Shown here piece after piece: positions 1,031 through 16,509 of a stretch of DNA of 40,681 nt; the first letter of the stretch is position 1, and each line of letters opens with the position of its first letter. The notes under the pieces were generated by a model that was not told the origin of the DNA, did no database searches, and saw only the letters and a list, made by a program, of their open reading frames with translations. Origin of the DNA: Clostridia bacterium (lineage in GTDB: Bacteria; Bacillota; Clostridia; UMGS1883; UMGS1540); NCBI GenBank assembly GCA_029006755.1, contig JAQXGO010000109.1, positions 1-40,681 of the forward strand, written 5' to 3'. Both the position numbers and the translations under genes were made by a program.

Positions 1031-1222
1031 CTATAAGCTTTTCTGATACGCACGCCCCTTTTGCAACAAAGCAATACCGCAGAAGATATTAAAATTCCGA
1101 ATAGGATTTACACCCATTTCTCGGGTTACAGCGTATCGATTTTTGATATCGGAAATCTGCTTTTTCGGAATATTACTCCAAAAATAAAAATATACTGTAT
1201 CCAATATGTGATTGGTGGTGGA
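1031..1222 (-). pseudogene. Possible gene remnant (open frame without a start)
   Basis: The minus strand is open for 63 codons, from just after a TAA at 1223-1225 to a TAG at 1031-1033. The translation has a protein-like composition, with segments such as NRYAVTREMGVNPIRNF and FCGIALLQKGRAYQKSL. There is no plausible start codon with a ribosome binding site near its beginning, and it abuts the start of the DUF6512 gene on the other strand. It may be the 3' remnant of a decayed or displaced gene, or a chance open frame. I could not assign a family. Confidence 0.2.
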
Positions 1223-1224
1223 TT

Positions 1225-1749
1225 ATGAAAAAACATATATTTTTATGGCAGATTTTTCAATTTGTATTTGTGTCAATTTTTGGTATTGTTTTGCACTTTT
1301 TGTATGATTGGACAGAGTCCGGTTTTATCGCAATGTTTTCAGCAGTCAATGAATCTACATGGGAGCATATGAAATTGATTTTCTTTCCAATGCTTTTGTT
1401 TGCATGGATACAAAAGCGTTTTATAGGGGACAAATATACGCATTTTTGGTGTTTGAAACTGCGCAGTATGCTTGTCGGTCTTATGATGATACCAATTTTA
1501 TTCTACACTTTGCGCGGGATATTCGGCAATACACCTGATTGGATAAATATTGCTGTTTTCTTTGTAGCCGTATCTGTTGCAATCGGATATGAAACGAAGC
1601 AGTTTTTAAACCCGGGCACTTCGTATAGAAACAACAAATTATGCATTTTTATGCTTTGCCTGATTGCAATTTGCTTTGCTGTATTTACATTTGCCCCGCC
1701 CAAAATCCCTTTGTTTCAGGATCCCATGAGCCGAACGTTCGGTATATGA
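1225..1749 (+). CDS. DUF6512-type small integral membrane protein
   Basis: This 174-residue, strongly hydrophobic protein has about five predicted membrane segments (roughly residues 7-27, 48-62, 80-98, 107-122 and 138-155). The N-terminal motif SAVNESTWEHMKLIFFP is characteristic of small uncharacterised Firmicute membrane proteins annotated as DUF6512. No enzymatic motif is visible. The upstream GGTGG makes a modest ribosome binding site for the ATG. The gene is visibly more AT-rich than the operons to its right and stands alone. Function unknown; the family call is from memory of the motif. Confidence 0.7.
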   Translation: MKKHIFLWQIFQFVFVSIFGIVLHFLYDWTESGFIAMFSAVNESTWEHMKLIFFPMLLFAWIQKRFIGDKYTHFWCLKLRSMLVGLMMIPILFYTLRGIFGNTPDWINIAVFFVAVSVAIGYETKQFLNPGTSYRNNKLCIFMLCLIAICFAVFTFAPPKIPLFQDPMSRTFGI

Positions 1750-1928
1750 TTGCATGTATTCTTTCAAAACAGATCTTGAACCTGCAAAGGTTTGCATCGA
1801 ACGAGGTGTGCGATCGACAAGTACGCAAGATACGGAGGGTTCATTTGAAAAGCGGAAACTGCGTCATTTGAATACACGTCGGAAATCATGGTGAAATGAT
1901 ATACAAGCGTAAAAATTTTTGTTTTGTA

Positions 1929-1957
1929 TTGAAAATAGAAAAACAATATGGTATACT
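1929..1957 (+). promoter_or_regulatory. Sigma-A promoter of the B12 riboswitch operon
   Basis: TTGAAA, a 17-base spacer and TATACT, with TGG before the -10. Transcription should start near 1964, giving a leader of about 470 bases before the first start codon at 2433. No convincing gene lies between the end of the DUF6512 gene (1749) and this promoter. Confidence 0.75.
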
Positions 1958-1984
1958 ATAATACATAAAATTAAATATTCACAC

Positions 1985-2205
1985 AAAGTGCCTGCTATAC
2001 CGCAAAGGATTACGGATCAAGGTATAGCCGGTGAAAAGGGAATGAGGTGCGAATCCTCTGCGGTGAACTGTCGGTGTGTACGTCGAATGTTTTTGTATTC
2101 GAAGGCGAAAGCCAGTCATTGGGAAACTGAGAAGGCAGAATACAAAAATGCAAGATAAAATCTTATATGGCGTGAGTCACAAGACCTGCTTTGATGTTGT
2201 TTCGA
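1985..2205 (+). promoter_or_regulatory. Cobalamin (adenosylcobalamin-type) riboswitch aptamer
   Basis: The canonical blocks of the B12 element appear in order: GTGCCT (1988-1993); a GCTATACC/GGTATAGC stem (1994-2001 with 2021-2028); GTGAAAAGGGAAT (2031-2043), the diagnostic core; GAGG..CCTC and GCGGTGAACTGT (2044-2071); the GCCAGT...GGGAAACTGAGAAGGC block (2111-2136); and the B12 box variant GAGTCACAAGACCTGC (2174-2189). It lies between a strong promoter and an intrinsic terminator at 2316-2356. Small open frames in the leader are by-products of the structured RNA. By family knowledge, bound cobalamin lowers expression of the downstream genes. Boundaries are approximate. Confidence 0.92.
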
Positions 2206-2290
2206 ACGTGCAGGCTCTGCATAGGAACAATGTTTTTGTTTGTGCGATTAGGCTTCTGCTAAATATGCCGGTATAAGCGTACAAATGAAT

Positions 2291-2320
2291 TGTGGCGCAT
2301 CACAGAAAAACGCAGCTGTG
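2291..2320 (+). promoter_or_regulatory. Candidate anti-terminator and anti-anti-terminator segments
   Basis: CACAG (2301-2305) can pair with CTGTG (2316-2320), which is the 5' foot of the terminator stem, so that pairing would block termination. The same CACA can instead pair with TGTG at 2291-2294. These mutually exclusive pairings would make a compact switching chain between the aptamer and the terminator. The pairings are short and are read by eye. Confidence 0.4.
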
Positions 2321-2356
2321 GTAATTTTTGTATCGAAAAATTACCACAGTTTTTTT
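2316..2356 (+). terminator. Intrinsic terminator of the B12 riboswitch
   Basis: A perfect 14-bp stem (2316-2329 with 2336-2349) closes a six-base loop GTATCG and is followed directly by TTTTTTT (2350-2356). It sits 77 bases before the first start codon and after the aptamer, as in a transcription-terminating expression platform. Confidence 0.92.
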
Positions 2357-2432
2357 ATTGACTGCGCTAAAACACGGAGAGCACGGACAGAAAGAAAATC
2401 ATAAAACGAATGAATGGAAAGGATTGAAAAAA

Positions 2433-5126
2433 ATGAAATTGAAAACATGGATGAGCGTATTACTCACAATATGTATGATTTTCAGTGTGGCATCTGCATT
2501 TGCAGATACAACTGACTACATAACTGTAAATGTGAGCATCGCAAAAGACGGACAGTTTGTAACCGGGAAAAATGGGTTTAAAATTGCACACACGCCGATA
2601 CCTGTCACTGACCGTAACAACGATGGCAGCTATGATATGGAAGAAGTGCTTTATGCGGCACACGAATCCTGTTATGCGGGCGGTGCCGAAAGCGGCTATG
2701 CTTCTGCAGAAACCGAGTACGGACAAAGCCTTACCAAACTTTGGGGTGTTGAAAACGTTGCTTTTGGTTATTACAAAGACAATCAACCTGCTATGAGTCT
2801 TGCTGATCCTGTAGCCAACGGCAACAGTGTTTATGCCTTTATATATCAGGATCAAGATAATTGGAGTGATACTTACACATATTTTGATGACGACACCATT
2901 GCAGCCGTGAAAGAGCAGAGGATATCCGTAAAGCTTAACAAGTTGGGATGGAATGAAAATGGGATGCCCGTTGCATCCCCTGTTGCAAATGCAACCATTA
3001 CCATTGACGGCAGCAGCACAGAATACAAAACAAACGAAGACGGTGTTGCGGAAATTACATTTGCGCATACAGGCATTTATACTTTATCCGCAGTCACTGC
3101 CTATACGATTACACCGCCGATCTGCATTGTAAACGTTACAGAAAATGGCAGTACCGAACCAACACCACCTACGGATGACAAAGATGACACGGAAAAATCC
3201 GACACACCAACGGACACCGAGAAAAAAGACTATGCAATTGTCATCCCCGATGCACTGGAAAAAATAGCGGCCACCTATATCGAAAAAGATGCATGGAGTG
3301 ACTGGATTGTAATGGATATGGGTGCTTATGCCAACTATGCACCTGAAACACAAAGCAAAATGACAGAGGATGCAAAACAAAAATATATCAATTCCGCAAT
3401 CCAAATCATTCAAGATGCTCCATCTGACACCGATATTGCCAAGGCTGTTTTAGGACTTGTTGCAATCCGTAAGGACCCTGCACTTCTTTACTCGGTCAAC
3501 AGCAACATTGCTATTTCGGCAATCGAAAAGCTGAACGATGTTCCCAAATCAACCAGTCCTTGGTCTGCTCCTTATACCTTGGCAGCCTATAATCAGGGCG
3601 ACTATGCTACCAACAACTACGAAACGAAGATGATCGATACTCTACTTGCGCATCAAGAAGAAAACGGCAGTTGGAATGAGTATGGAACTATCGATACAAC
3701 CGCGAATGTAATCGCCGGCTTATCATTCTATAAGGACAAGCCGAAGGTTCGGGATGCGATCGACAAGGCTATCAACTATCTTTCCACACAGCAAAATCCG
3801 GACGGAACATTTTCGGATAGTTTTAGCGGTGCCAATGCAAATTCAACGGCAATGGTTGTCATTGGTCTGTCTGCGGCAGGCGTTGATTTAATAAACGACA
3901 CCCGCTTTATTCAAAATGAGAACACCATAATAGATGGCTTATTGTCATTCTTAGTTGCAGACGGGAATGGGTTCGGACACACAAATAACGAAAGCATAAA
4001 TCCCGGCGCCACTGAGCAAGCGTTTCGTGCCTTAATTGCGATTATGCAAACAACTGCAACCGGTGAAGCCTATAACATATATGATTTTAGCAAGAACGAG
4101 AGGACGCCTGCCCGTGCAACAGGAAGCAGTACATCCTCTTCCACCCCCTCCGCACCGACCGGTCAGATGATTACTGTTACGCTGACCATCAAAGCCGATA
4201 CGGGATATTGGCTAAAAAAATACAAGGTGCGCTTACCCGGTGATGATGCAACAGTTTACGACGCATTTGTAATGGCTTGCAAAGACAACTCCATTGCACA
4301 TATAGGGGCTGCAAGCGGTTATGTTTCCTCCATGACAAACGGTAGCAAAACACTTGCTGAATTTGACAAAGGCGAGAACTCCGGTTGGCTTTATAAAGTC
4401 AATGGCGAATTACCCACCGTAGGACTTACCGATTGCAGGATTGCAGACGGCGATACGATTGTATGGTATTACACAAAGGATTGGGCACGTGATCCAAGCG
4501 CAAGTCGTGATAGCAGTGCTGCTTCTATCTCTGTGCCAATAGACGAACCGAAAGAGGAAATCAAGGATACCCTGCCGACCATAGAGATCCAACAGTATAC
4601 AGACGTCCCGGTAGATGCTTGGTATTATCATGATATAAAAAAAGCGATGGAAATCGATCTTTTACATGGCATATCCGATCATACATTTGCACCCGACATG
4701 GGTGTGACAAGAGGCATGCTTGTCACTGTTCTCTATCGGTATGCCGGTGAAAAAGGCTTTCAGAATTCGATTCATTTTACTGATTGCGATGCGCATGCAT
4801 GGTATTCCGATGCGGTATGCTGGGCATCCGAAAATCATATCGTCAGCGGATATGGCAACGGCATATTTGGACCAGACGATTCTGTAACAAGGCAGCAGCT
4901 CGTAACCATTCTTTACAGATACGCAGGAACAAAAACCCAAGCAGATTGCAGTGAATTTGCAGATGCGGAGGAAATCGAAGATTGGGCAAAAGATGCAATG
5001 ATGTGGGCAGTTGCAAATAAGATTATATGCGGCACAGATCAGAACGCATTAAATCCAAACGGATATGCTACCCGTGCTGAATTGGCAACCATCTTTATGC
5101 GTTATATCTATACGCTGGCAGAATAA
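2433..5126 (+). CDS. Secreted SLH-anchored protein with alpha-toroid and transcobalamin-like (DUF4430) domains
   Basis: This 897-residue exported protein starts at the ATG behind GGAAAGGA. An in-frame start at 2328 lies inside the terminator and is rejected. Order of parts: signal peptide 1-24; a DUF4430-like beta domain about 27-150; an Ig-like or carboxypeptidase-regulatory-like beta domain about 162-237; a Pro/Thr/Asp-rich linker 238-266; an alpha-toroid of prenyltransferase-type repeats about 267-550 (QEENGSWNEYGTIDTTANV, QQNPDGTFSDSF); a Ser/Pro linker; a second DUF4430 domain about 580-685 (SGWLYKVNGELPTVG, DGDTIVWYY); and three SLH domains from about 719 to 893 for binding cell wall polymer. 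An alpha-toroid followed by this beta domain is the architecture of animal intrinsic factor and transcobalamin. With the B12 riboswitch upstream, corrinoid binding at the cell surface is the inferred role. Confidence 0.85.
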   Translation: MKLKTWMSVLLTICMIFSVASAFADTTDYITVNVSIAKDGQFVTGKNGFKIAHTPIPVTDRNNDGSYDMEEVLYAAHESCYAGGAESGYASAETEYGQSLTKLWGVENVAFGYYKDNQPAMSLADPVANGNSVYAFIYQDQDNWSDTYTYFDDDTIAAVKEQRISVKLNKLGWNENGMPVASPVANATITIDGSSTEYKTNEDGVAEITFAHTGIYTLSAVTAYTITPPICIVNVTENGSTEPTPPTDDKDDTEKSDTPTDTEKKDYAIVIPDALEKIAATYIEKDAWSDWIVMDMGAYANYAPETQSKMTEDAKQKYINSAIQIIQDAPSDTDIAKAVLGLVAIRKDPALLYSVNSNIAISAIEKLNDVPKSTSPWSAPYTLAAYNQGDYATNNYETKMIDTLLAHQEENGSWNEYGTIDTTANVIAGLSFYKDKPKVRDAIDKAINYLSTQQNPDGTFSDSFSGANANSTAMVVIGLSAAGVDLINDTRFIQNENTIIDGLLSFLVADGNGFGHTNNESINPGATEQAFRALIAIMQTTATGEAYNIYDFSKNERTPARATGSSTSSSTPSAPTGQMITVTLTIKADTGYWLKKYKVRLPGDDATVYDAFVMACKDNSIAHIGAASGYVSSMTNGSKTLAEFDKGENSGWLYKVNGELPTVGLTDCRIADGDTIVWYYTKDWARDPSASRDSSAASISVPIDEPKEEIKDTLPTIEIQQYTDVPVDAWYYHDIKKAMEIDLLHGISDHTFAPDMGVTRGMLVTVLYRYAGEKGFQNSIHFTDCDAHAWYSDAVCWASENHIVSGYGNGIFGPDDSVTRQQLVTILYRYAGTKTQADCSEFADAEEIEDWAKDAMMWAVANKIICGTDQNALNPNGYATRAELATIFMRYIYTLAE

Positions 5127-5177
5127 TCGATGCAGAATACAAACAGTTGGCTTTTGCCGTTTCATAAGGAGATAAAC

Positions 5178-6764
5178 ATGAAAAAATACGTATCAATCCT
5201 GTTGAGCTTTGTGCTTATCCTCTCCTCTGTCAGCACATTGGCCGCAGAACAAAGTATCGGAGACATCCTTACAGACACAGCAAACTACATATACGCATCC
5301 GTTCAAGAACCGCAGGTTGGCACAGCAGGTGGAGAATGGGCAATTTTAGGCCTGGCGAGAAGTCATGCAGATGTTCCGGCCGAATATTTTGAAACATACT
5401 ATACGAACGTCCAAAAGCATGTAGTGGATCAACAAGGCGTATTGCATGACAAGAAATATACCGAGTATGCCAGGGTGATTCTTGCATTAACTGCCATCGG
5501 TAAAAACCCGATGGATGTATCGGGATACAACCTTGTAGCACCCCTTGAAGATTACGATAAAACAGTATGGCAAGGCATTAACGGCGCAATATTTGCTTTA
5601 ATTGCCCTGGATAGCGGCAACTATTTGCCCCAAAGTACCGTCAGAGATAAATATGTCCATCATATTTTAGAACAGCAAACTGCGGATGGCGGATGGACGA
5701 TGTCAGGCGATACTGCCGATATCGACACAACCGCTATGGCTCTCTCTGCATTATCCAATTACCAAGAGAATGAGGACGTTAAAACAGCCACAGACAAAGC
5801 ACTGGATTATATATCCGATATACAGCTTGCAGACGGCGGTTTTGCTAGTTGGAATATGGAAAATGCAGAAAGCTGCTGTCAGGTTATTGTGGCTCTTTGC
5901 GAGCTGGGGATCAGCATCCATGATCCAAGATTTCTGAAGAACGAAAAATCTGTAGCAGATGCGCTCCTTACATACCGCCTCCCTCAATCCGGCTTTCAGC
6001 ACACGAAAAGCGAAACAACAGGAAATCAAATAGCAACTGAACAGGCCCTGTATGCACTTGTGGCACTGGACAGAATGTATCATAACCAACCCACTCTTTA
6101 TGATATGCAAAATGTGCAGGTTCATTTAACATCAGGCAAAGAACAAATCGGCTTGCCCGGCAAAAGTGCGGCCGTAAAGAAACTGCCTGTTATGCATGAC
6201 GGCAAAACATTTGCAGACGTTGTAAACGCAGAAGAAAAGGCAAAAATCGAAGCACTGGCCGCGCGGGGCATGATCAATGGCAGAACAGAGAATACATTTG
6301 TCCCCACAGCTACATTAACGAGGGCAGAATTTGCGGCAATTCTCGTAAAAAGCTTAGGCATCGAATTTACAGGCGAGAATGTTTTTTCGGATGTGAAAAA
6401 GGAAAGTTGGTACAAAGATTATATCAGAACAGCCTATTCGTATGGCCTAATAAAGGGCGTTTCTGCCACAGTATTTCATCCTGAAGGAACAGTTACAAAA
6501 GAAGAGGCGGCAACAATGGTACAGAGAGCAGCAAAACTTTGCGGAATGGCAAAGTCTTATGACGAAAACAGTGTAAGAGATATACTTGCCGGATTTGTGG
6601 ACTACGCGAAATCCGGTGATTGGGCAAGGGAATCGTTGGCCTTTTGCTATGATAACGGAATTTTGCCTGACAGCGATATGGAAATACTACCTAAGAATGC
6701 TGTGACAAGGGAAGAAGTTGCATCCATGCTCTACAATTTGTTGCTGACAGCAAAACTATTATAG
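5178..6764 (+). CDS. Secreted SLH-anchored alpha-toroid (prenyltransferase-repeat) protein
   Basis: This is a 528-residue exported protein. AAGGAG precedes the ATG at 5178, and the codons upstream in the same frame (from 5130) lack a ribosome binding site. It has a signal peptide at 1-23. Residues about 25-305 form an alpha-toroid with repeats QQTADGGWTMSGDTADIDTT and IQLADGGFASWNMENAESCC; the DTTAMAL stretch resembles the alpha-barrel of intrinsic factor-type proteins. Three SLH domains follow (about 343-389, 402-446 and 470-520), the third rather divergent. Unlike its neighbour it has no DUF4430 domain. It lacks the acidic DxDD motif of terpene cyclases, so I infer a binding role. It lies 51 bases after the first gene of the riboswitch operon. 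Confidence 0.82.
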   Translation: MKKYVSILLSFVLILSSVSTLAAEQSIGDILTDTANYIYASVQEPQVGTAGGEWAILGLARSHADVPAEYFETYYTNVQKHVVDQQGVLHDKKYTEYARVILALTAIGKNPMDVSGYNLVAPLEDYDKTVWQGINGAIFALIALDSGNYLPQSTVRDKYVHHILEQQTADGGWTMSGDTADIDTTAMALSALSNYQENEDVKTATDKALDYISDIQLADGGFASWNMENAESCCQVIVALCELGISIHDPRFLKNEKSVADALLTYRLPQSGFQHTKSETTGNQIATEQALYALVALDRMYHNQPTLYDMQNVQVHLTSGKEQIGLPGKSAAVKKLPVMHDGKTFADVVNAEEKAKIEALAARGMINGRTENTFVPTATLTRAEFAAILVKSLGIEFTGENVFSDVKKESWYKDYIRTAYSYGLIKGVSATVFHPEGTVTKEEAATMVQRAAKLCGMAKSYDENSVRDILAGFVDYAKSGDWARESLAFCYDNGILPDSDMEILPKNAVTREEVASMLYNLLLTAKLL

Positions 6765-6774
6765 AGGATAAGAA

Positions 6775-7608
6775 ATGAGAACTATACTGAAACATAAAAA
6801 CAAAATCATCGCCGGTGCATGCATTGCCGCTGTGCTTGCATTTGCGTTTTGGTGGGGTGGTGATTCTCCCTTACAGCAAAGCCGGGAACCAAATGAATTT
6901 CAATTTGCAGAGAGAACGCAAACGCCTGAAGCTGTACCTACGGATGTACCGAAGCAAGGCGAAGAATCAACTACCGAACCCAACCCTCCGCCTGCGGATC
7001 CTACATCTATGCCGTTTGATGCTAAGAACGAAACTATGAAGGAGATGACAGGCATATCGCAATCGGCGCGTAGCGAAAAGGAAGAATACGCCGAGGAACA
7101 AGGCATTGCATGGAACCAAAGCACAGACAAAGATACATATACGACAAGTCCTATGCCTGCAAAACCGCAGGAGACACAAAAGACAGACAAGGCGTTCACT
7201 TGCATCCTTTCTGTTCGTTGTGATACAATCCTTAAAAATATTCAAAGGCTCGACGAACAAAAGATCAGTATTGTGCCAAAAAACGGCATAATATTTGCGG
7301 AACAGGAAGTCCCTTTTTATGCGGGTGAAAGTGTATTCAATGTGACTCTTCGTGAAATGAAAAGGAATAAAATTCATTTTGAATTTGTAAATACGCCTAT
7401 ATATAAGAGTGCATATATTGAAGGAATCGCTAATCTCTATGAATTTGACTGCGGAGAACTTTCAGGCTGGATGTATAAAGTGAATGGTTTGTTTCCGAAC
7501 TATGGTTGCTCAAGATACATGCTGCAACAAGGGGACAGAGTTGAATGGGTTTACACTTGCGATTTAGGGAAAGATGTCGGCGGCGGCATACAGCAGAGAG
7601 ATGCGTGA
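6775..7608 (+). CDS. Membrane-anchored transcobalamin-like (DUF4430) protein
   Basis: This 277-residue protein has a positively charged N-terminus, one hydrophobic segment at about 11-27 (signal anchor; no lipobox cysteine seen), a low-complexity Pro/Thr/Glu-rich spacer at about 35-138, and one DUF4430 domain at about 140-265. Its signature is GELSGWMYKVNGLFPNYGCS, then QQGDRVEWVYT. The spacer would hold the beta domain away from the membrane, across the wall. GAGGAT precedes the ATG, ten bases after the previous stop, so it belongs to the riboswitch operon. It may take ligand from the SLH-anchored proteins and pass it to a transporter encoded elsewhere. That hand-over is inference. Confidence 0.82.
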   Translation: MRTILKHKNKIIAGACIAAVLAFAFWWGGDSPLQQSREPNEFQFAERTQTPEAVPTDVPKQGEESTTEPNPPPADPTSMPFDAKNETMKEMTGISQSARSEKEEYAEEQGIAWNQSTDKDTYTTSPMPAKPQETQKTDKAFTCILSVRCDTILKNIQRLDEQKISIVPKNGIIFAEQEVPFYAGESVFNVTLREMKRNKIHFEFVNTPIYKSAYIEGIANLYEFDCGELSGWMYKVNGLFPNYGCSRYMLQQGDRVEWVYTCDLGKDVGGGIQQRDA

Positions 7609-7757: not shown

Positions 7758-8288
7758 TTATATTTCGTTTTCGATTGCGTGACGAAGCATGTTTAGTTTG
7801 GTTTCGTTGTTGTTTGTATCATTGTCAGTCATGGTCACTGTACCTAACACAAGGGATTGGATTTTAAAAACCTTTTGCGCATCGTTTTCAAAATAACTTG
7901 CCATTAAGTCTGCAATGCTTTGGATCATATTGAGATTGGCTTTTTTACTGCCCAGATTCATCATAAGTATGGAACGAAATTGCGAATTTCCGGTACAAAA
8001 CCGAACGAATGCAATGCATGCTTCCATCAGCTGGCGCTTTTGATCATCCTCAAAAACAGACTTGATCTGCTCCAAAAGTGCAGTCCACTGGTTGTCAACA
8101 TAGCATATAATTGCATTGATAAAATCATTTTTGTCTTTAAAATGCTTGTAGGGTGCCGCACAGGACACATTGCACTTGGATGCAACGCGCCTGAGAGAAA
8201 AATCCGCAAACCCATGAATTTCTAGTTCTGTAAGCCCTTCGGCTAGCAATCTTTCTTTAATCGTTTCGTTTGATATAAATTCTTCCAA
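7758..8288 (-). CDS. TetR/AcrR-family transcriptional regulator
   Basis: This 176-residue protein starts at TTG (8286-8288) behind GGGAG. The N-terminal helix-turn-helix is seen at about residues 24-50 (FSLRRVASKCNVSCAAPYKHF), followed by KDKNDFINAI as in TetR proteins. The C-terminal helices are unassigned and somewhat short for the family. It is transcribed divergently from the aromatic amino acid operon, with 210 bases between the two start codons, so that operon is a candidate target. The protein itself shows no aromatic-ligand signature. Confidence 0.82.
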   Translation of the reverse strand: MEEFISNETIKERLLAEGLTELEIHGFADFSLRRVASKCNVSCAAPYKHFKDKNDFINAIICYVDNQWTALLEQIKSVFEDDQKRQLMEACIAFVRFCTGNSQFRSILMMNLGSKKANLNMIQSIADLMASYFENDAQKVFKIQSLVLGTVTMTDNDTNNNETKLNMLRHAIENEI

Positions 8289-8325: not shown

Positions 8326-8354
8326 AGTATATCATTTACAGAAAAAAAATGCAA
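8326..8354 (-). promoter_or_regulatory. Sigma-A promoter of the second TetR gene
   Basis: The minus strand reads TTGCAT, a 17-base spacer and TATACT, with TGA before the -10. It drives the TTG-started TetR gene about 30 bases downstream. Confidence 0.72.
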
Positions 8355-8423
8355 TATTCTATGTGCATATGCAATGGTTTTCATAAAGCTTGTTGTTTTG
8401 GCGGACAATGCAGTAAAAAATAC

Positions 8424-8452
8424 TTGACTTTTTTCAAGAATAATAGTATAAT
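8424..8452 (+). promoter_or_regulatory. Sigma-A promoter of the aromatic amino acid operon
   Basis: TTGACT, a 17-base spacer and TATAAT, close to consensus. Transcription should begin near 8459, about 40 bases before the pheA start. No other promoter of this quality was noticed inside the operon, where genes overlap or nearly touch. Confidence 0.85.
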
Positions 8453-8464
8453 AAAGCTATATAA

Positions 8465-8481
8465 AGTTAACACTGTTAACT
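8465..8481. promoter_or_regulatory. Palindromic operator candidate of the aro operon
   Basis: AGTTAAC-ACT-GTTAACT is a perfect 7-3-7 inverted repeat, placed at about +6 to +22 of the predicted transcript and just before the pheA ribosome binding site. A repressor here would block early transcription. The divergent TetR protein is one candidate. A TrpR-like repressor is another, since GTTAAC recurs in known trp operators. The cognate protein is not established. Confidence 0.55.
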
Positions 8482-8498
8482 CAAACAAGGAGTATGGT

Positions 8499-9587
8499 AT
8501 GGATAAACTGCAAAAAGCAAGAAAAATGATCAACGAAATAGATGCAAAAATGTCTGCACTTTTTTGTGCGCGTATGGAGGCTGCAAAGCTTGTTGCCGAG
8601 CACAAGCAGGAGCACGGGTTGCCTATATTTGATAAAGCAAGAGAACAGATAGTGATTGAAAATAATGCAAAACTGGTTGAAGATGATGAAATCCGTTCCT
8701 ACTATATAAACTTTTTAAAGTATACTATGAAGCTTTCCCGTCAGTATCAGCATATGCTTATCAGCGGCATGAAAGTTGCATACAGCGGTGTTGAGGGTGC
8801 CTTTGCCCACATTGCGGCAGGCAAAATATTCCCTGATGCCAATCTTATTCCGTACAGTGATTTTGATTCTGCATACGAGGCTGTGGTTGCAGGCGAATGT
8901 GATTGTGCGGTTATGCCGATTGAAAACAGTTATGCCGGTGAAGTCGGTCAGGTGCTGGACCTTATGTTCAAGGGTTCCCTGTACATAAACGGCGTGTATG
9001 ATCTTGAGGTTTCGCAAAATCTTATAGGTCTTCCCAATAGCAGACTTTCGGATATCCGTGAGGTTGTCAGCCATCCGCAGGCACTGATGCAGTGTGCCGG
9101 TTTTATTAAGGAAAACGGATTTGAGCAAATACAGGAAGTCAACACCGCAATAGCGGCTCAAAAAGTTGCAGAAGGCGGCGACAAGTCCGTTGCGGCGATT
9201 GCCGGCAAAGAAACGGCGGATTTGTATGGTCTTAAAATTATTGAAAAGGATATAAACGAAAGTAGTTTTAACACAACACGTTTTGCCGTATTTTCAAGAG
9301 CGCAAAATATGGATAAGGCACCCGGCAATCACTTTTTGATGCTATTTACCGTCGGCCATGTTGCAGGTGCCCTTGCAAAGGCAATCCATGTGATCGGTCG
9401 CCACGGATTTAACATGCGGGTGCTTCGCAGCCGACCTGTTAAGGATTCCAATTGGCAATATTACTTTTACGTAGAAGCAGAAGGAAATGTAAACAGCGAA
9501 GAGGGACAGAAAATGCTTGACGAATTAAAGGAGTATTGTGAGCAACTAAAGGTTGTCGGTAATTATTCCAATCAAATTGTGCTGTAA
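8499..9587 (+). CDS. pheA: Bifunctional chorismate mutase / prephenate dehydratase (P-protein)
   Basis: This 362-residue enzyme converts chorismate to prephenate and then to phenylpyruvate for phenylalanine synthesis. The start is the ATG behind CAAGGAGT; the 50 in-frame codons upstream run through the promoter and are rejected. Domains: AroQ-type chorismate mutase 1-88; prephenate dehydratase about 91-275, starting VAYSGVEGAFAH and including the catalytic Thr-Arg-Phe at 260-262; ACT regulatory domain about 278-350. In the ACT domain the usual phenylalanine-binding motifs are altered, to GALA (290-293) and RSRP (310-313) in place of GALV and ESRP, so feedback control may differ. It is the first gene of the aro operon. 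Confidence 0.95.
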   Translation: MDKLQKARKMINEIDAKMSALFCARMEAAKLVAEHKQEHGLPIFDKAREQIVIENNAKLVEDDEIRSYYINFLKYTMKLSRQYQHMLISGMKVAYSGVEGAFAHIAAGKIFPDANLIPYSDFDSAYEAVVAGECDCAVMPIENSYAGEVGQVLDLMFKGSLYINGVYDLEVSQNLIGLPNSRLSDIREVVSHPQALMQCAGFIKENGFEQIQEVNTAIAAQKVAEGGDKSVAAIAGKETADLYGLKIIEKDINESSFNTTRFAVFSRAQNMDKAPGNHFLMLFTVGHVAGALAKAIHVIGRHGFNMRVLRSRPVKDSNWQYYFYVEAEGNVNSEEGQKMLDELKEYCEQLKVVGNYSNQIVL

Positions 9588-9599
9588 GGGCGGAACACT

Positions 9600-10610
9600 A
9601 TGATTATCAATATGGATTTAGGCAAAAATAGTTACGATATTGTGGTAGAAAGAGGTTGCCTGCATAGGGCAGACAAGCTGCTTCGCCTGGACCGGAAAGT
9701 TCTTATTATTACAGATAGCGGCGTACCAAAGCAATACAGCCAGTGCATTGCTTCTAAATGCAAAGAGGCTTTCATTGTATGTGTAGAACAAGGGGAATCC
9801 AGCAAGAGCTTCGATACCTACAAAACCCTTTTGTCTGCGCTTTTACACAATGGATTTACCCGCACCGACTGTGTCATTGCAGTAGGCGGCGGTGTTGTCG
9901 GCGATCTTTCCGGCTTTGTTGCGGCATCATTTATGCGGGGGATTGATTTTTACAACATTCCCACTACGCTTTTATCCCAAATAGATTCTTCTATCGGCGG
10001 AAAAGTGGCAATTAACTTTGAAGGCATTAAAAATATTGTAGGTGCCTTTTATCAACCCAAAAAAGTATTGATCGATCCTGATGTTTTACGCACTTTGCCG
10101 CAGAGACAAATTTCAAACGGTCTTGCAGAGGCAATTAAAATGTCACTCACGTCGGACAGTGCGCTTTTTGAGGTTTTTGAAAAGAATGCTATTGCGCAAA
10201 ACATGGATACAATTATTGTAAAATCTCTTTGCATTAAAAGAGATGTTGTCCAGCAGGATGAAAAGGAAACAGGCCTTCGCAAAATTCTAAATTTCGGTCA
10301 TACAATCGGTCACGGAATTGAGAGTCAGGCGAAAACAAACGGGCTTTATCATGGCGAATGTGTTGCACTGGGTATGATTCCCATGTGCAGTCCAAGTGTA
10401 AAGGAGCGTCTTGTTCCCGTTCTGGAAAAAGTGCAATTGCCTACACAGCTTCATTGTGATGTGAACCAAGTATGTGCTGCAATGCGGCATGATAAAAAGC
10501 TCGACGGAAGCACATTGACTGTCATAACTGTCCCAACACCGGGAAGCTTTGAAATGCGAAAAATATCATTAGACGAACTTGAGGAAATAACAAAACAATC
10601 ACTAAATTAA
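9600..10610 (+). CDS. aroB: 3-dehydroquinate synthase
   Basis: This 336-residue cytosolic NAD- and metal-dependent enzyme makes 3-dehydroquinate from DAHP, the second shikimate step. Signatures are the NAD-binding AVGGGVVGDLSGFVA, the PTTLLSQIDSSIGGK segment, the NIVGAFYQPK motif, and the metal-ligand region GLAEAIKMSL with LNFGHTIGHGIE further on. It is slightly shorter than the common length of about 350-360, mainly at the C-terminus, with the core complete. It lies 12 bases after pheA. Confidence 0.96.
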   Translation: MIINMDLGKNSYDIVVERGCLHRADKLLRLDRKVLIITDSGVPKQYSQCIASKCKEAFIVCVEQGESSKSFDTYKTLLSALLHNGFTRTDCVIAVGGGVVGDLSGFVAASFMRGIDFYNIPTTLLSQIDSSIGGKVAINFEGIKNIVGAFYQPKKVLIDPDVLRTLPQRQISNGLAEAIKMSLTSDSALFEVFEKNAIAQNMDTIIVKSLCIKRDVVQQDEKETGLRKILNFGHTIGHGIESQAKTNGLYHGECVALGMIPMCSPSVKERLVPVLEKVQLPTQLHCDVNQVCAAMRHDKKLDGSTLTVITVPTPGSFEMRKISLDELEEITKQSLN

Positions 10611-10623
10611 GGGAATTGGTTTT

Positions 10624-11724
10624 ATGAAAAATACATTTGGCCAAAGTGTCAGCATAACAATATTCGGTGAGAGTCACGGAGAACAAATTGGTGCGATTTT
10701 GGATGGAATGGCACCGGGGATCCCTGTTGATAAAGACTTTATTCTGTCTCAAATGGACAAAAGGCGTGCAAAGGGAAGGATTTCCACCTCCAGAAAAGAG
10801 GAAGACGAGGTTTTGATATCAAGCGGCGTTTTTGAGGGCAAAACCACAGGAACGCCAATTTGCTTTACGATTAAAAACAACAATACGCAAAGCAAAGACT
10901 ACAGCCAAACACGCAATTTTGCAAGACCCGGCCATGCCGATTACGCCGCAAACTGCAAATATCACGGCTTTGAGGACTATCGCGGTGGCGGTCACTTTAG
11001 CGGCAGAATAACCGCAGGTATTGTTGCGGCCGGTGCAGTGGCCATAAGCGCTCTAAGCGAAAAAGGGATACACATAGGCACGCACATTGCCAAATGCGCA
11101 GGCATAAAAGACAGAAATTTTAACGATATTGCAAAAGATATCCAAGCATTAGACAGTATGGATTTTGCGGTGCTGGATGAGAATGCAGCGGCACAAATGA
11201 ACCATGCAATCATCGATGCCGCCAACCAAGGCAACAGCGTTGGCGGTATATTGGAAACTGCAGTTTTCGGCCTTCCGGCCGGTGTGGGAGAACCATGGTT
11301 TGACAGTTTCGAGAGTGTTATATCACATATTCTTTTTTCCATTCCTGCTGTAAAGGGCGTCCAGTTTGGCGCAGGCTTTGCAATGGCAGATATGTACGGA
11401 AGCCAAGCAAATGATGCGTTTTATATCCAAGACGGCAAAGTCAGCACAACTACAAATAACAACGGCGGCATCAACGGCGGTATCACCAACGGAATGCCTG
11501 TGATCATGAGTTGTGTGATAAAGCCTACGCCGTCCATATACCAACAGCAAAACACAATAGATTTTATAAACGGCGAAAATGTGCAGTTTACGATTAAGGG
11601 CAGACACGATCCTGCAATCATTCACAGAGCAAGAGTTGTAGTAGACAGTGCAGTTGCACTTGCACTGTGCGATATGCTGGCGCAGCGTTTTGGCACAGAC
11701 TGGCTGAAAGGAAACGAATCATGA
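10624..11724 (+). CDS. aroC: Chorismate synthase
   Basis: This 366-residue enzyme uses reduced FMN to eliminate phosphate from EPSP, giving chorismate, the last shikimate step. Family motifs are FGESHGEQIGAILDG near the N-terminus, RPGHADYAA, and YRGGGHFSGRITAGIVAAGA. Length is normal for the family. It starts 13 bases after aroB. Its TGA stop overlaps the ATG of the next gene in an ATGA arrangement, which points to translational coupling. Confidence 0.96.
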   Translation: MKNTFGQSVSITIFGESHGEQIGAILDGMAPGIPVDKDFILSQMDKRRAKGRISTSRKEEDEVLISSGVFEGKTTGTPICFTIKNNNTQSKDYSQTRNFARPGHADYAANCKYHGFEDYRGGGHFSGRITAGIVAAGAVAISALSEKGIHIGTHIAKCAGIKDRNFNDIAKDIQALDSMDFAVLDENAAAQMNHAIIDAANQGNSVGGILETAVFGLPAGVGEPWFDSFESVISHILFSIPAVKGVQFGAGFAMADMYGSQANDAFYIQDGKVSTTTNNNGGINGGITNGMPVIMSCVIKPTPSIYQQQNTIDFINGENVQFTIKGRHDPAIIHRARVVVDSAVALALCDMLAQRFGTDWLKGNES

Positions 11725-12953
11725 AATACGGATGTATCGGTGAGCATTTATCACATAGTTTTTCAAAGGAAATACACAACAGAATAGAAAGCTATGCGTA
11801 TGAACTTTGCGAGGTTCCAAAAGATAAATTAGATGAATTTATGACAAAAAGGGAATTTTATGCAATCAATGTTACCATTCCCTACAAGCAAGATGTCATT
11901 CCATTTCTTGATTGCATCGATGATATGGCAAAGGAGATCGGTGCAGTAAACACCATTGTAAACCGCGACGGCAAACTGTACGGCTACAACACGGATTTTA
12001 TGGGTATGCTTGCCCTGTCTTGCAAAATCGGCATTGATTTTAAAGAGAAAAAAGTGCTTGTGCTGGGTACAGGCGGTACAAGCAAAACAGCGGTTGCCGT
12101 TGCAAAAAGTGAAGGTGCAAAAGAGATTGTCATCGTGAGCCGTCGGGGCGGTGAAAACTGCGTTACCTATGACCAGGCAAAGAAGCTCCACCACGATTGC
12201 CAAATCGTCATCAATACCACCCCTTGCGGCATGTACCCGCAAAACGACGGTATGCCCATAGATTTACATGATTATCCTGCTGTTGAGGGTGTTCTGGATG
12301 CTGTCTATAATCCTCTTGTTACGCGGCTTGTTTGCGAGGCGACCAAAAAGGGCATAAAGGCAGAATGCGGACTTTATATGCTTGTAGCGCAAGCCGTTTT
12401 TGCGGCAGAAAAATTTACCGGAAAAGCGTATGATAGAAAAATCATAGACCGTGTTTTTAAGGAGACTCTTGCATCTAAACAAAATATTGTACTAACAGGT
12501 ATGCCGGGCAGTGGCAAAACCACAGTGGGCAAACTTTTATCCACCATGACAGGGAGACCGTTTACAGACACAGATGAAAGAATTGTCGAAAAGCACGGCG
12601 ATATATCAACTATTTTTGCAAAGCAGGGCGAGGGTATATTTCGTGATTTTGAAACACAAGCCGTAAAAATGATAAGTGAAAATTGCGGACAGATTATTGC
12701 GACCGGAGGCGGTGCAATTCTGCGGCAGCAAAATATGGATGCACTGAAATCAAACGGCAAGGTGTTTTTTATAGACCGACCTCTTGAAAATCTGATTCCC
12801 ACGGATGACAGGCCCCTTGCGAACAATGCAGAGGCAATTCAAAAACGCTATGCGGAAAGATATCAAAAATACTGTGATAGCGCAGATGTGATAATAAATG
12901 CCGACTGCCCAATCGAACAAGTGGCACAAAAAATATTAGAAAAGATGGAGTGA
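11721..12953 (+). CDS. aroEK: Shikimate dehydrogenase - shikimate kinase fusion
   Basis: One 410-residue chain carries two consecutive pathway enzymes. Residues 1 to about 250 are AroE: substrate motif LSHSFSKEIHN, catalytic Lys56 in VTIPYKQD, NTD at 90-92, and the NADP-binding LGTGGTSKT. Residues about 254-410 are AroK: P-loop GMPGSGKTT (260-268), TDTDERI, the GGGAI motif and the DDRPLA lid. The ATG at 11721 overlaps the aroC stop; an earlier in-frame codon at 11667 lies within aroC and is rejected. The joint at about residues 248-256 is short, with no long linker. The two activities would turn 3-dehydroshikimate into shikimate and then shikimate-3-phosphate. The symbol describes the fusion and is not a standard name. 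Confidence 0.95.
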   Translation: MKYGCIGEHLSHSFSKEIHNRIESYAYELCEVPKDKLDEFMTKREFYAINVTIPYKQDVIPFLDCIDDMAKEIGAVNTIVNRDGKLYGYNTDFMGMLALSCKIGIDFKEKKVLVLGTGGTSKTAVAVAKSEGAKEIVIVSRRGGENCVTYDQAKKLHHDCQIVINTTPCGMYPQNDGMPIDLHDYPAVEGVLDAVYNPLVTRLVCEATKKGIKAECGLYMLVAQAVFAAEKFTGKAYDRKIIDRVFKETLASKQNIVLTGMPGSGKTTVGKLLSTMTGRPFTDTDERIVEKHGDISTIFAKQGEGIFRDFETQAVKMISENCGQIIATGGGAILRQQNMDALKSNGKVFFIDRPLENLIPTDDRPLANNAEAIQKRYAERYQKYCDSADVIINADCPIEQVAQKILEKME

Positions 12954-12956
12954 ATT

Positions 12957-13397
12957 ATGAAAATAATGGTAATCAACGGGCCGAATCTGAATATGCTTGG
13001 CATCAGGGAGCCCGCTATATATGGAAAAACAACATACAATGACTTGTGCGCGCTGATAAAGGAACACTGCCGGCAAAACCATATTGATGTTGAACTTTAT
13101 CAGTCAAATCACGAGGGGGACCTTGTGGATAAAATCCAAAGCACATACAACACGTTTGACGGCATTGTGATAAACCCCGGCGCATACACGCACACAAGCA
13201 TCGCAATCCTGGATGCGGTAAAGGCTGTGGGCGTTCCTACCGTGGAGGTACACATATCCGATGTAGACAGCCGTGAGCCTTTTCGCAGTGTGAGCTATAT
13301 TCGCTTTGCCTGCGAAAAAACCATTTCGGGCAGAGGGCTGCAAGGATACATAGATGCCATTGACTATCTTGTAAACAAAAAGGGTAACGAATTATGA
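12957..13397 (+). CDS. aroQ: Type II 3-dehydroquinate dehydratase
   Basis: This 146-residue enzyme dehydrates 3-dehydroquinate to 3-dehydroshikimate. It has the type II signature INGPNLNMLGIREPAIYG with the catalytic tyrosine, the Asn and Gly of VINPGAYTHTSIA, and the catalytic histidine in VEVHISDVDSREPFR. Length is typical of dodecameric type II enzymes. It starts three bases after aroEK, and its stop overlaps the aroA start by four bases. Confidence 0.95.
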   Translation: MKIMVINGPNLNMLGIREPAIYGKTTYNDLCALIKEHCRQNHIDVELYQSNHEGDLVDKIQSTYNTFDGIVINPGAYTHTSIAILDAVKAVGVPTVEVHISDVDSREPFRSVSYIRFACEKTISGRGLQGYIDAIDYLVNKKGNEL

Positions 13398-14605
13398 AAC
13401 TAACTTTTGAAAAATCTACACCAAGGGGGACAATATGTGCGCCGCCGTCAAAAAGCATGGCACACAGAATGTTAATCAGCGGCGGATTAAGCGACGGAAA
13501 AAGCATTGTCCATGGAATAGCGCCTTCACAAGATGTCCTTGCAACGCTCGATTGTCTGGAAAGCCTTGGCGCAAAATACACCTATCAAAATGACACTGTG
13601 GTCATTGAGGGTATAGGAACATCAGAAGGTGCAAAAGATACTCTCAAATGCCGCGAAAGCGGCTCTACTTTGCGTTTTTTCATTCCCTTGTGCTTGCTGG
13701 GCAACGGTAAAGCCACACTGACAGGCAGTGAAACACTGCTTGGCAGACCTCTGGATGTATACAAAAATATATGCGATAAACAGAATATCAAATTTATAAA
13801 CGATGGTAAAAAAATCCGGCTGGACGGCAAACTGCAAAGCGGTGACTTTAAAATTCCCGGCAACATAAGCAGTCAGTTTATTAGTGGACTGTTGTTTGCA
13901 TTGCCATTACTTTCCGGGGACAGCACAATCAATATTGTGCCGCCTATTGAAAGTTTGTCGTATATCAATTTAACCATTGAGGCGCTCGGCGAATTTGGTG
14001 TTGAAGCGAAATGGCTTGATGAGCGTACGCTGTATATAAAAGGCAGTCAGCAGTACCACCCGCAGGAAGTTTGGGTGGAGGGCGATTATTCAAATGCCGC
14101 ATTTTTTGCCGCAATGGATTGCCTTGGCGGCGATGTCAAGATTACAGGTCTTAAAGAGCAAAGTATCCAGGGTGACAGAGTATATACCCGCCTTTTTGAA
14201 CAGCTTGGCAAAGGGACACCTGCAATTAATATATCCGATTGTCCGGACCTTGGCCCTGTTTTGCTCGCAGTTGCGGCGGCAAAATCGGGCGGTGTATTTA
14301 CAGGCACGAACAGACTGCGCATCAAAGAGAGCGACAGAGGCGCAGCCATGGCAGAGGAACTTAAAAAATTCGGTGCCTCTGTCAAGGTGGAGGACAATAC
14401 GATTGTGGTATATCCAATAGATTTTCACAAGCCAAACGAGGTGCTTTTCGGTCACAATGACCATCGTATTGTCATGTCGCTTTGCGTCTTGCTGATGTAC
14501 ACAGGAGGAACAATAGACGGCGTCGAGGCTGTAAACAAAAGTATGCCCGACTTTTTTGAAAAATTAAAACAGCTTGGAGTGAATTTTAAAAATGAAACAG
14601 TTTGA
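13394..14605 (+). CDS. aroA: 3-phosphoshikimate 1-carboxyvinyltransferase (EPSP synthase)
   Basis: This 403-residue enzyme joins phosphoenolpyruvate to shikimate-3-phosphate. Visible motifs are PPSKSMAHRMLI near the N-terminus, RESGSTLRFF (the PEP-site loop, with the key glycine kept), GRPLDVY, and RIKESDRGAAMAEELKKFG with the catalytic Lys, Glu and Arg, then GHNDHRIVMSL. Length is slightly below the common value of about 430. The ATG overlaps the aroQ stop (ATGA). Its last 14 bases overlap tyrA. Confidence 0.95.
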   Translation: MKLTFEKSTPRGTICAPPSKSMAHRMLISGGLSDGKSIVHGIAPSQDVLATLDCLESLGAKYTYQNDTVVIEGIGTSEGAKDTLKCRESGSTLRFFIPLCLLGNGKATLTGSETLLGRPLDVYKNICDKQNIKFINDGKKIRLDGKLQSGDFKIPGNISSQFISGLLFALPLLSGDSTINIVPPIESLSYINLTIEALGEFGVEAKWLDERTLYIKGSQQYHPQEVWVEGDYSNAAFFAAMDCLGGDVKITGLKEQSIQGDRVYTRLFEQLGKGTPAINISDCPDLGPVLLAVAAAKSGGVFTGTNRLRIKESDRGAAMAEELKKFGASVKVEDNTIVVYPIDFHKPNEVLFGHNDHRIVMSLCVLLMYTGGTIDGVEAVNKSMPDFFEKLKQLGVNFKNETV

Positions 14606-15452
14606 TATAGAAAGCAAGATACTGATTGTAGGGCTGGGCCTTTTAGGCGGCAGTTATGCAAAGGCTCTTTCGAAAAAGGGAATGTATGTATCTGCTATAG
14701 ATATCCGTAAAGAGAGTATAGAGTACGCACTCAAAAATGGTATCATCTGTGAGGGCAGCACAGAGGTGCAAAAGCAGATGATACAGAATGCAGATGTGAT
14801 TGTGTTTGCACTGTACCCAAAAGTTTTTGTACAGTGGATAAAAGAATATCAGCATCTTTTTAACCCCGACACACTTATCACAGACGTAACCGGTGTGAAA
14901 AAATGCATTGTGGATGAAATCCATGCAATTTTGCGCAGTGATGTGGAATTCGTGGCGGCTCACCCTATGGCAGGCCGTGAAGTGTACGGCGTTGAAAACA
15001 GCGACGACAGGATTTTTAACGGTGCAAACTACATTGTAGTGCCAACCGAACAAAATACCAGAGAAGGCATAGCCAACTGCAAAAAACTCGGCATATATCT
15101 CGGCTTTGCAAGGATAGCAGAACTCAGCCCCGAAGAGCATGACGAAATGATTGGATTTGTATCGCAACTTACCCATTGCATAGCCATAAGCCTTATGACA
15201 TGTTGCGACAATGAAGGTCTTGTAGATTACACAGGCGACTCCTTTCGGGATTTAACTCGAATTGCACGAATAAACGAGAATATGTGGAGCGAACTTTTTA
15301 TGCTGAACAAACAGGCGCTCCTCACGCAGATGGATATATTTATGCATGAATTTCAAACCATCCGCCACTTTATTGCAAATGGAGAGGTTGACAAACTGAA
15401 AGACAAAATGAAACTTTCGACAAAGCGCAGAGCATTGTTTGATAGAAAATAG
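14592..15452 (+). CDS. tyrA: Prephenate dehydrogenase
   Basis: This 286-residue NAD-dependent enzyme oxidatively decarboxylates prephenate to 4-hydroxyphenylpyruvate for tyrosine. The N-terminal Rossmann motif is VGLGLLGGSYAKAL; the catalytic-site motif is AAHPMAGRE, followed by the helical domain with SQLTHCIA. There is no ACT or chorismate mutase domain, so it is the short monofunctional form. It overlaps aroA by 14 bases, with TTGGAG upstream as ribosome binding site. Confidence 0.93.
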   Translation: MKQFDIESKILIVGLGLLGGSYAKALSKKGMYVSAIDIRKESIEYALKNGIICEGSTEVQKQMIQNADVIVFALYPKVFVQWIKEYQHLFNPDTLITDVTGVKKCIVDEIHAILRSDVEFVAAHPMAGREVYGVENSDDRIFNGANYIVVPTEQNTREGIANCKKLGIYLGFARIAELSPEEHDEMIGFVSQLTHCIAISLMTCCDNEGLVDYTGDSFRDLTRIARINENMWSELFMLNKQALLTQMDIFMHEFQTIRHFIANGEVDKLKDKMKLSTKRRALFDRK

Positions 15453-15465
15453 ACGGGAGATAAAT

Positions 15466-16509
15466 ATGATGAACAGCAATATGAACATGGATTTTAAAAT
15501 TAAACTGCCTATACCAAAGGATATAAAATCTGCATATCCGCTGGATGCAGGACTGGAAAAGATTGTAGAAGGCAGAAACCGCGAAATCAGAGATGTGTTT
15601 GAGGGCAAATCGGACAGGTTTGTGCTTGTAATAGGCCCTTGCTCTGCCGATAACGAAGACAGTGTTATGGACTATATTACAAGGCTTCAAAAGATGCAGG
15701 AAAAGGTAAGGGAGAAATTGATTCTTATTCCTCGAATTTATACAAACAAGCCCCGCACAACAGGCGATGGCTACAAGGGAATGCTTCATCAACCGAATCC
15801 GAACGAAAAGCCGGATATGCTGAAAGGCATTATTGCAATACGCAGTTTGCATATGCGAGCTCTCAGAGAAACCGGTTTTACGTGTGCTGATGAAATGCTC
15901 TATCCCGAAAATTACCGATATCTGAACGATATTCTCGGTTATGTTGCCGTTGGCGCACGTTCTGTGGAAAACCAGCAGCACCGTCTTACTGCAAGCGGTA
16001 TTGATATCCCTGTGGGTATGAAGAATCCAACGAGCGGAGATATTTCTGTGATGATGAACTCCATTACAGCGGCACAACATTGCCACACGTTTATCTATCG
16101 CGGTTGGGAAGTTTCTACACATGGAAATCCTTGTGCACATGCCATATTGCGCGGATATGTCAACAAGCACGGACAATCCCTTCCCAATTACCACTACGAG
16201 GACCTTTTAAACCTGTGGGAAGCATACGCCAAATCAGGCCTTGCAAATCCGAGCGTAGTGGTGGATGTCAATCATGCAAATTCAGGGAAACAGCCTTTGG
16301 AGCAAATTAGAATTTCAAAGGAGATTTTGCACAGTATGCGCCACAATGCAGATATTGCCAAAATGGTAAAGGGCTTGATGATAGAGAGTTACATCGTAGA
16401 CGGTGCACAAAAAATCGGTGAATGTATTTACGGAAAATCCATTACTGACCCATGTCTTGGTTGGGAAAAAACAGAAAGATTAATTTACGACATAGCGAGT
16501 CTTCTTTAG
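15466..16509 (+). CDS. aroF: 3-deoxy-7-phosphoheptulonate (DAHP) synthase, class I alpha type
   Basis: This 347-residue enzyme condenses phosphoenolpyruvate and erythrose-4-phosphate, the committed step of the pathway. Motifs match the E. coli AroF/AroG/AroH class: VIGPCSADNEDSV, KPRTTGDGYKGML, GARSVENQQHR, VVDVNHANSGKQ and YGKSITDPCLGWE. The start is ATG behind CGGGAGA; an earlier in-frame codon at 15439 lies inside tyrA. Which of the aroF/G/H paralogues it most resembles, and which amino acid inhibits it, cannot be decided by eye. It is the last gene of the operon, although it encodes the first step. Confidence 0.93.
   Translation: MMNSNMNMDFKIKLPIPKDIKSAYPLDAGLEKIVEGRNREIRDVFEGKSDRFVLVIGPCSADNEDSVMDYITRLQKMQEKVREKLILIPRIYTNKPRTTGDGYKGMLHQPNPNEKPDMLKGIIAIRSLHMRALRETGFTCADEMLYPENYRYLNDILGYVAVGARSVENQQHRLTASGIDIPVGMKNPTSGDISVMMNSITAAQHCHTFIYRGWEVSTHGNPCAHAILRGYVNKHGQSLPNYHYEDLLNLWEAYAKSGLANPSVVVDVNHANSGKQPLEQIRISKEILHSMRHNADIAKMVKGLMIESYIVDGAQKIGECIYGKSITDPCLGWEKTERLIYDIASLL

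Follow-up and report, generated by a model that had tools for sequence, protein, structure and literature searches.

A Cobalamin Riboswitch and Three Exported Proteins in a Clostridia Bacterium: The Predicted Capture Half of a Vitamin B12 Uptake System

The Locus

In a stretch of 40,681 nucleotides from a Clostridia bacterium (assembly GCA_029006755.1, contig JAQXGO010000109.1, positions 1–40,681 of the forward strand), called the window here at its full length, a cobalamin riboswitch and an intrinsic terminator precede genes for three exported proteins, P1, P2 and P3 (Table 1), which we consider highly likely to form the capture half of an uptake system for corrinoid (vitamin B12). A preliminary description of this DNA had listed a B12 riboswitch, a terminator and three proteins built from alpha toroids, DUF4430 domains, S-layer homology (SLH) anchors and one membrane anchor, and every one of these parts was found, the domains as Pfam matches above cut-off and the membrane segment of P3, like the N-terminal signal peptides of P1 and P2, by eye. 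The genome is 1.78 Mb long, lies in 118 contigs and has a rated completeness of 98%.

The aptamer matched the Rfam model RF00174 over its full length with 45.5 bits (gathering threshold 31.5; expect value, E, 2.1e-8) and was the only such match in the genome; six riboswitches from sister genomes could be aligned to it throughout. The candidate promoter, a match that taken alone is within chance for consensus scans, would place the start of transcription approximately at the beginning of the aptamer, and the leader (1967–2360) had a folding z of -3.3. From the riboswitch class and the presence of the terminator, the leader would act in the OFF direction, with termination when cobalamin is high. 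Short gene spacings and a common strand make it likely that P1, P2 and P3 share one transcript. An open frame beginning at a TTG inside the terminator was rejected as the start of P1 in favour of the ATG at 2433.

Table 1. Features of the riboswitch operon and, where a contig is named, of the transporter genes elsewhere in the same genome.
Feature	Position	Strand	Basis
Promoter, extended -10 (TTGAAA-17-TATACT, TG before -10)	1929-1957	+	Consensus scan
Cobalamin riboswitch aptamer, RF00174	1969-2207	+	Rfam covariance-model match
Intrinsic terminator (expression platform), 16-pair hairpin then T run	2314-2358	+	Hairpin search, folding
P1, secreted SLH-anchored putative receptor with toroid and DUF4430, 897 amino acids	2433-5126	+	Domain matches; homologues in sister genomes and 80 loci
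P1 N-terminal conserved domain and immunoglobulin-like stretch, residues 25-235	2505-3137	+	Homologue comparison
P1 alpha/alpha toroid	3222-4067	+	SQHop_cyclase_C above cut-off; AlphaFold model
P1 DUF4430 (transcobalamin C-terminal-like beta-grasp)	4245-4478	+	PF14478, 53 bits
P1 SLH domains	4578-5123	+	PF00395, 94 bits; match to S-layer protein Sap (6bt4/3pyw)
P2, secreted toroid and SLH protein, 528 amino acids	5178-6764	+	Signal peptide by eye; domain matches
P2 alpha/alpha toroid	5244-6152	+	PF00432 (Prenyltrans) and PF13243 (SQHop) above cut-off
P2 SLH domains	6228-6761	+	PF00395, 88 bits
P3, membrane-anchored DUF4430 protein, 277 amino acids	6775-7608	+	Domain match; one N-terminal membrane segment
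P3 N-terminal membrane segment, with a long stretch rich in Pro, Thr and Glu after it	6802-6855	+	Read from sequence
P3 DUF4430	7324-7557	+	PF14478, 59 bits
CbiQ-like T component (EcfT), contig C77 (locus L037)	1194-2123		Family match
Fused EcfA-EcfA'-S, 901 amino acids, two ATP-binding cassette (ABC) ATPases and S domain, contig C77 (locus L037)	2096-4801		Family match

Likeness to Animal B12 Carriers

An AlphaFold model of P1 residues 264–692, which comprise the toroid and DUF4430 (predicted local distance difference test 87; predicted template modelling score, pTM, 0.87), had cobalamin carriers as all of its 15 best Foldseek matches (E 3e-11 to 5e-9): intrinsic factor, haptocorrin, and human, bovine and rat transcobalamin, in alignments that spanned both domains. 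The next matches were terpene cyclases (E 2e-5), whose shorter alignments fitted the toroid. Like P1, the animal carriers consist of an N-terminal alpha/alpha toroid and a C-terminal beta-grasp in one chain. Taken domain by domain, the P1 toroid and DUF4430 are modelled with the fold of transcobalamin and intrinsic factor, as the preliminary description had anticipated. Sequence-only searches of the PDB with the toroid and with the P3 DUF4430 did not reach transcobalamin; structure comparison alone reached it. In contrast to the animal carriers, P1–P3 are bacterial and anchored to wall or membrane, P2 and P3 divide the two domains between two chains, and the domain orientation in the P1 model is different.

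The Gene Set in Relatives

Relatives were gathered by a scan with the P3 domain across one genome per species, which located at least 579 places encoding it, and 80 loci drawn from Clostridia, Tissierellia and Paenibacillus were examined, among them those of the cultured species Flavonifractor plautii, Lutispora thermophila, Sporobacter termitidis, Ructibacterium gallinarum and Paenibacillus spp. P3 was called cleanly in 70 loci, 68 of which had enough downstream DNA for a test of transporter genes of the energy-coupling factor (ECF) type. In 64 of the 70 the gene directly preceding P3 was the toroid gene P2, and in 63 of the 68 the one directly following it was an ECF gene; the operon with CbiO/CbiQ-like genes that characterises the bacterial SLBB/DUF4430 clade was likewise present in 63/68 and in the sister genome G005.

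Since the loci had been picked via P3 and not via the riboswitch, its association with them is a fair test, and the preliminary description's expectation that the same gene set would lie behind B12 riboswitches elsewhere proved well founded: a riboswitch lay upstream on the same strand, with no opposing genes between, in 45/70 loci, regularly in other Clostridia and in Paenibacillus. All but one were found with a covariance model built from seven riboswitches of the window's family (44/70), and locus L071 was added by Rfam. Fifteen of the 25 loci without an upstream riboswitch were cut by contig ends. Counted by genome, the riboswitch preceded the gene set in 36 of 50, with 0.28 expected at random placement, a comparison whose probability is indicative only, as related species are not independent. 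Where a genome had a single cobalamin riboswitch, that riboswitch was at the P1–P3-type locus in 16 of 22 cases.

All six genomes of the window's GTDB family had one or two cobalamin riboswitches, eight in total, six of which preceded P1-like genes (toroid/DUF4430/SLH homologues). The seventh (genome G001) preceded a secreted-protein gene cut by a contig end, and the eighth (G003, contig C6, L028:453-3751) stood directly before EcfT and a fused EcfA-EcfA'-S; the surface genes of G003 have a riboswitch of their own on a different contig. The operon of G005 unites the parts in the order riboswitch, P1, P2, P3, EcfT and fused EcfA-EcfA'-S. A second cobalamin riboswitch of G005 (contig C44, L030:5905-9370) precedes a stand-alone P1-like toroid protein with no SLH or DUF4430 match.

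P1 homologues vary in their modules, have one to three toroids and range from 893 to more than 2300 residues in length, and residues 25–235 of the window's P1 matched no Pfam family above cut-off. The P2 toroid is 44–57% identical to those of 24 relatives (all 25 aligned members match PF13243), and the outer domain of P3 is 65–75% identical to its counterparts in 24 relatives, with a mean column identity of 81%. As P1 is variable while the P3 outer domain is highly conserved, P1 would fit the part of an exchangeable outer receptor and P2–P3 that of a fixed part at the transporter. P1 and P3 both combine a DUF4430 domain above cut-off with export, as do members of the bacterial transcobalamin-like clade.

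We give almost no credence to the notion that P1–P3 serve in the S-layer or in adhesion and share only their regulation with B12 metabolism. SLH domains and a large P1 of variable make-up are what such proteins might have; an outer P3 domain so similar between Clostridia and Paenibacillus, a P3 gene that abuts or overlaps EcfT in many loci, and the existence of a toroid–DUF4430 lipoprotein fusion that has no SLH (locus L106, below) all speak against it.

The Transporter and the Host's Probable Need for Corrinoid

The preliminary description was correct that the operon itself holds neither a B12 transporter nor a corrinoid enzyme: in the window's genome the ECF pair lies on contig C77 and the methionine synthase MetH on contig C30. 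The C77 pair has an EcfT, two EcfA domains and an S domain homologous to that of a known cobalamin transporter. When a profile of the S domain (18 sequences, 73% mean column identity) was compared with the PDB, it matched chain A of 6FNP over residues 5–178 with E 3.5e-14, the next match having 0.095. This entry contains the Lactobacillus delbrueckii transporter ECF-CbrT, which has been shown to take up cobalamin and cobinamide in an ATP-dependent manner (PMC5997447); chain A, listed as "Membrane protein" with 182 residues, is by our own reading CbrT itself. This homology, which extends over the length of CbrT, is the strongest independent pointer to a corrinoid as the predicted substrate. Unlike ECF-CbrT, the S domain here is fused to a duplicated ATPase, the T component is dedicated, and most relatives have surface receptors in the operon. 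The fused protein was present in five of the six family genomes; the search that located it used a query joining both ends of the window genome's own fused protein, and its hits should be relied on for position only.

The host appears to need what such a transporter would bring. MetH was the sole protein in the genome with a strong B12-binding domain, and targeted family searches found no cobalamin-independent methionine synthase MetE (no PF01717), no CobS and no FecCD/BtuC permease above cut-off (one weak hit fell below it), absences that are limited by the incompleteness of the 118-contig assembly. With MetH present and MetE and CobS absent, methionine synthesis in this host should depend on imported corrinoid.

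Adjacent to MetH is the third of the genome's three DUF4430 domains, the others being those of P1 and P3. It belongs to a small lipoprotein with the lipobox LVGC (L009:4063-4464), whose gene diverges from those of MetH and its activation-domain protein, with a tRNA between, and which is possibly a stand-alone corrinoid-binding lipoprotein. It was rejected as a member of the P1–P3 operon, as it lies on another contig, is divergent from MetH and has no riboswitch nearby.

These findings also bear on whether corrinoid might simply be hoarded or sequestered at the wall, for storage or for denial to competitors, with no handover to a transporter. Some P1 homologues (L092, L105 and L109) combine two or three toroids with several DUF4430 domains in a single chain and, as possibly multivalent receptors, may hold several ligands, as hoarding would have it. 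With the genes so closely bound to the transporter in the operons of relatives, and with a host for which the lack of MetE and CobS makes uptake a need, hoarding is highly improbable.

A Proposed Split Transcobalamin

In a member of the Gracilibacteraceae, a single lipoprotein of 539 residues (L106:780-2399) has a toroid of the P2 type (E 2e-84) and, after it, a DUF4430 of the P3 type (E 3e-61), with a cobalamin riboswitch upstream and EcfA downstream. Like P1, it has toroid and beta-grasp in one chain, as in the animal family. Foldseek placed 14 cobalamin-carrier chains at the top of the matches to its model (pTM 0.64), in which the linker and a portion of the beta domain are poor; VIA-align of the same model gave no carriers among the 50 matches listed, which excludes nothing. 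This natural fusion suggests that P2 and P3 act as one unit, and with moderate confidence we regard them as probably the halves of a split transcobalamin, in which the toroid of P2 and the DUF4430 of P3 would enclose a single corrinoid next to the transporter.

The pairing has a serious competitor, which concerns mechanism alone: P2 might be a receptor and P3 a docking subunit for the ECF transporter, unpaired with each other, with P1 the only transcobalamin-like protein. P1 is alone in having both domains, and the overlap of P3 with EcfT is what docking would predict; set against these are the L106 fusion and the adjacency of P2 and P3 in nearly all loci, and we think this arrangement plausible, if on the doubtful side. 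We put at slightly short of an even chance the complete proposal, in which the wall-held alpha half (P2) and the membrane-held beta half (P3) would clamp one corrinoid at the entrance to an ECF transporter of the CbrT type, the closing and opening of the clamp would be the handover, and animals would later have inherited the fused form.

The Ligand and the Proposed Pathway

Several observations weigh against a corrinoid-capturing role for P1–P3. By sequence, the toroids belong to the squalene-cyclase/prenyltransferase (terpene-cyclase) families, and P1, P2, the L106 fusion and 25 toroids matched no eukaryotic cobalamin-binding Pfam family. VIA-align of the P1 model ranked squalene cyclases (Z ~21) above intrinsic factor (Z ~18.8), because they superpose as one rigid toroid. 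Compared with ligand-bound carriers over both domains, the P1 model had a template modelling score (TM-score) of ~0.4 and a root-mean-square deviation of ~20 Å; the P1 and L106 models match transcobalamin domain by domain, with whole-chain deviations of about 15–21 Å. The differing domain orientation in the P1 model could reflect either an open form or an error of the model. In the window's genome the transporter is unlinked to P1–P3 and has no riboswitch, and 10 of the 70 loci had long upstream DNA with no riboswitch within reach.

The toroid affinities could be taken to mean that the surface proteins bind some other small ligand (heme or another tetrapyrrole, an isoprenoid-like molecule or a complex of cobalt) and that B12 only regulates them. 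We rate this as improbable: the S domain is nearest specifically to the cobalamin component CbrT, toroid and DUF4430 taken together are nearest to the cobalamin carriers, and B12 uptake genes are commonly under the control of B12 riboswitches. Such a ligand would accord with the SQHop_cyclase and Prenyltrans matches of the toroids, whose nearest relatives by sequence are terpene cyclases, and with the CbiQ-like T component, a name that refers to cobalt; ECF systems that import heme also exist (PMC7299338).

Capture of corrinoid at the wall and its passage inward, as proposed in the preliminary description, is instead supported by the riboswitch, the domain-by-domain fold matches, the gene association, the CbrT homology and the occurrence of MetH without MetE or CobS. 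We infer the corrinoid ligand of P1–P3, the order of handover, the pairing of P2 with P3 and the direction of regulation. In the pathway that we envisage, cobalamin at high concentration in the cytoplasm would bind the leader RNA, the terminator would form and transcription would stop; at low cobalamin P1, P2 and P3 would be made. P1 and P2 would be exported and held at the wall by their SLH domains, P3 would be held in the membrane, and P1 has toroid and DUF4430 in one chain, as transcobalamin does. From the closed P2–P3 pair the corrinoid would be handed to the ECF transporter, with its CbrT-type S domain, whose genes close the operon in most relatives, and once imported it would serve MetH.

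Flanking Genes

Genes for TetR-family regulators lie on the minus strand on both flanks of the riboswitch operon (86–787 and 7758–8288). Beyond the second is a compact aromatic amino acid operon (8349–16509), which from its translations encodes chorismate mutase/prephenate dehydratase, AroB, AroC, a fused AroE-AroK, AroQ, AroA, TyrA and DAHP synthase.

Earlier Predictions and Implications

BtuB/BtuG and BtuFCD capture corrinoids at the surface and import them, often under the control of B12 riboswitches, as is predicted for the present system. The preliminary description had called P1–P3 a Gram-positive counterpart of BtuB/BtuG, and the comparison stands for the predicted capture role only; it fails for the machinery, as BtuB is a TonB-dependent outer-membrane channel and the system here, made of unrelated proteins, has no outer membrane, no TonB channel and no BtuC-type permease above cut-off, only an ECF-type ABC transporter.

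The idea of scavenging is not new. A 2007 paper by Burroughs, Balaji, Iyer and Aravind (PMC1796856) predicted in silico that exported toroid/SLBB (DUF4430) proteins of low-GC Gram-positives scavenge B12, and already noted CbiO/CbiQ-like operon partners of the transcobalamin-like SLBB proteins; a bacterial origin of animal transcobalamin and intrinsic factor was also proposed in 2007. The present system resembles the clade described there in its exported DUF4430-type beta-grasp fused to or beside toroids and in its CbiO/CbiQ-like operons. It differs in its riboswitch and S-layer anchor, neither of which the text of that paper mentions, and in its fused S component, none being named in the paper's contextual section. 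In the literature searched (subscription papers and preprints not covered), we found no experimental work on P1–P3-type proteins and no account of the riboswitch control, the CbrT link or the split architecture.

How scarce B12 is captured at the wall of Gram-positives, which have no outer membrane, is poorly known, and the gene set offers a defined and testable answer, one that connects the in-silico prediction of 2007 with a B12 riboswitch and with a transporter type already proven to carry B12. The set occurs in several hundred genomes at the least, those of cultured gut and soil species among them. Very probably, Gram-positive bacteria of gut and soil use a system of the P1–P3 type to catch B12 at the wall, which bears on the competition for B12 in the gut and on the origin of animal transcobalamin and intrinsic factor.

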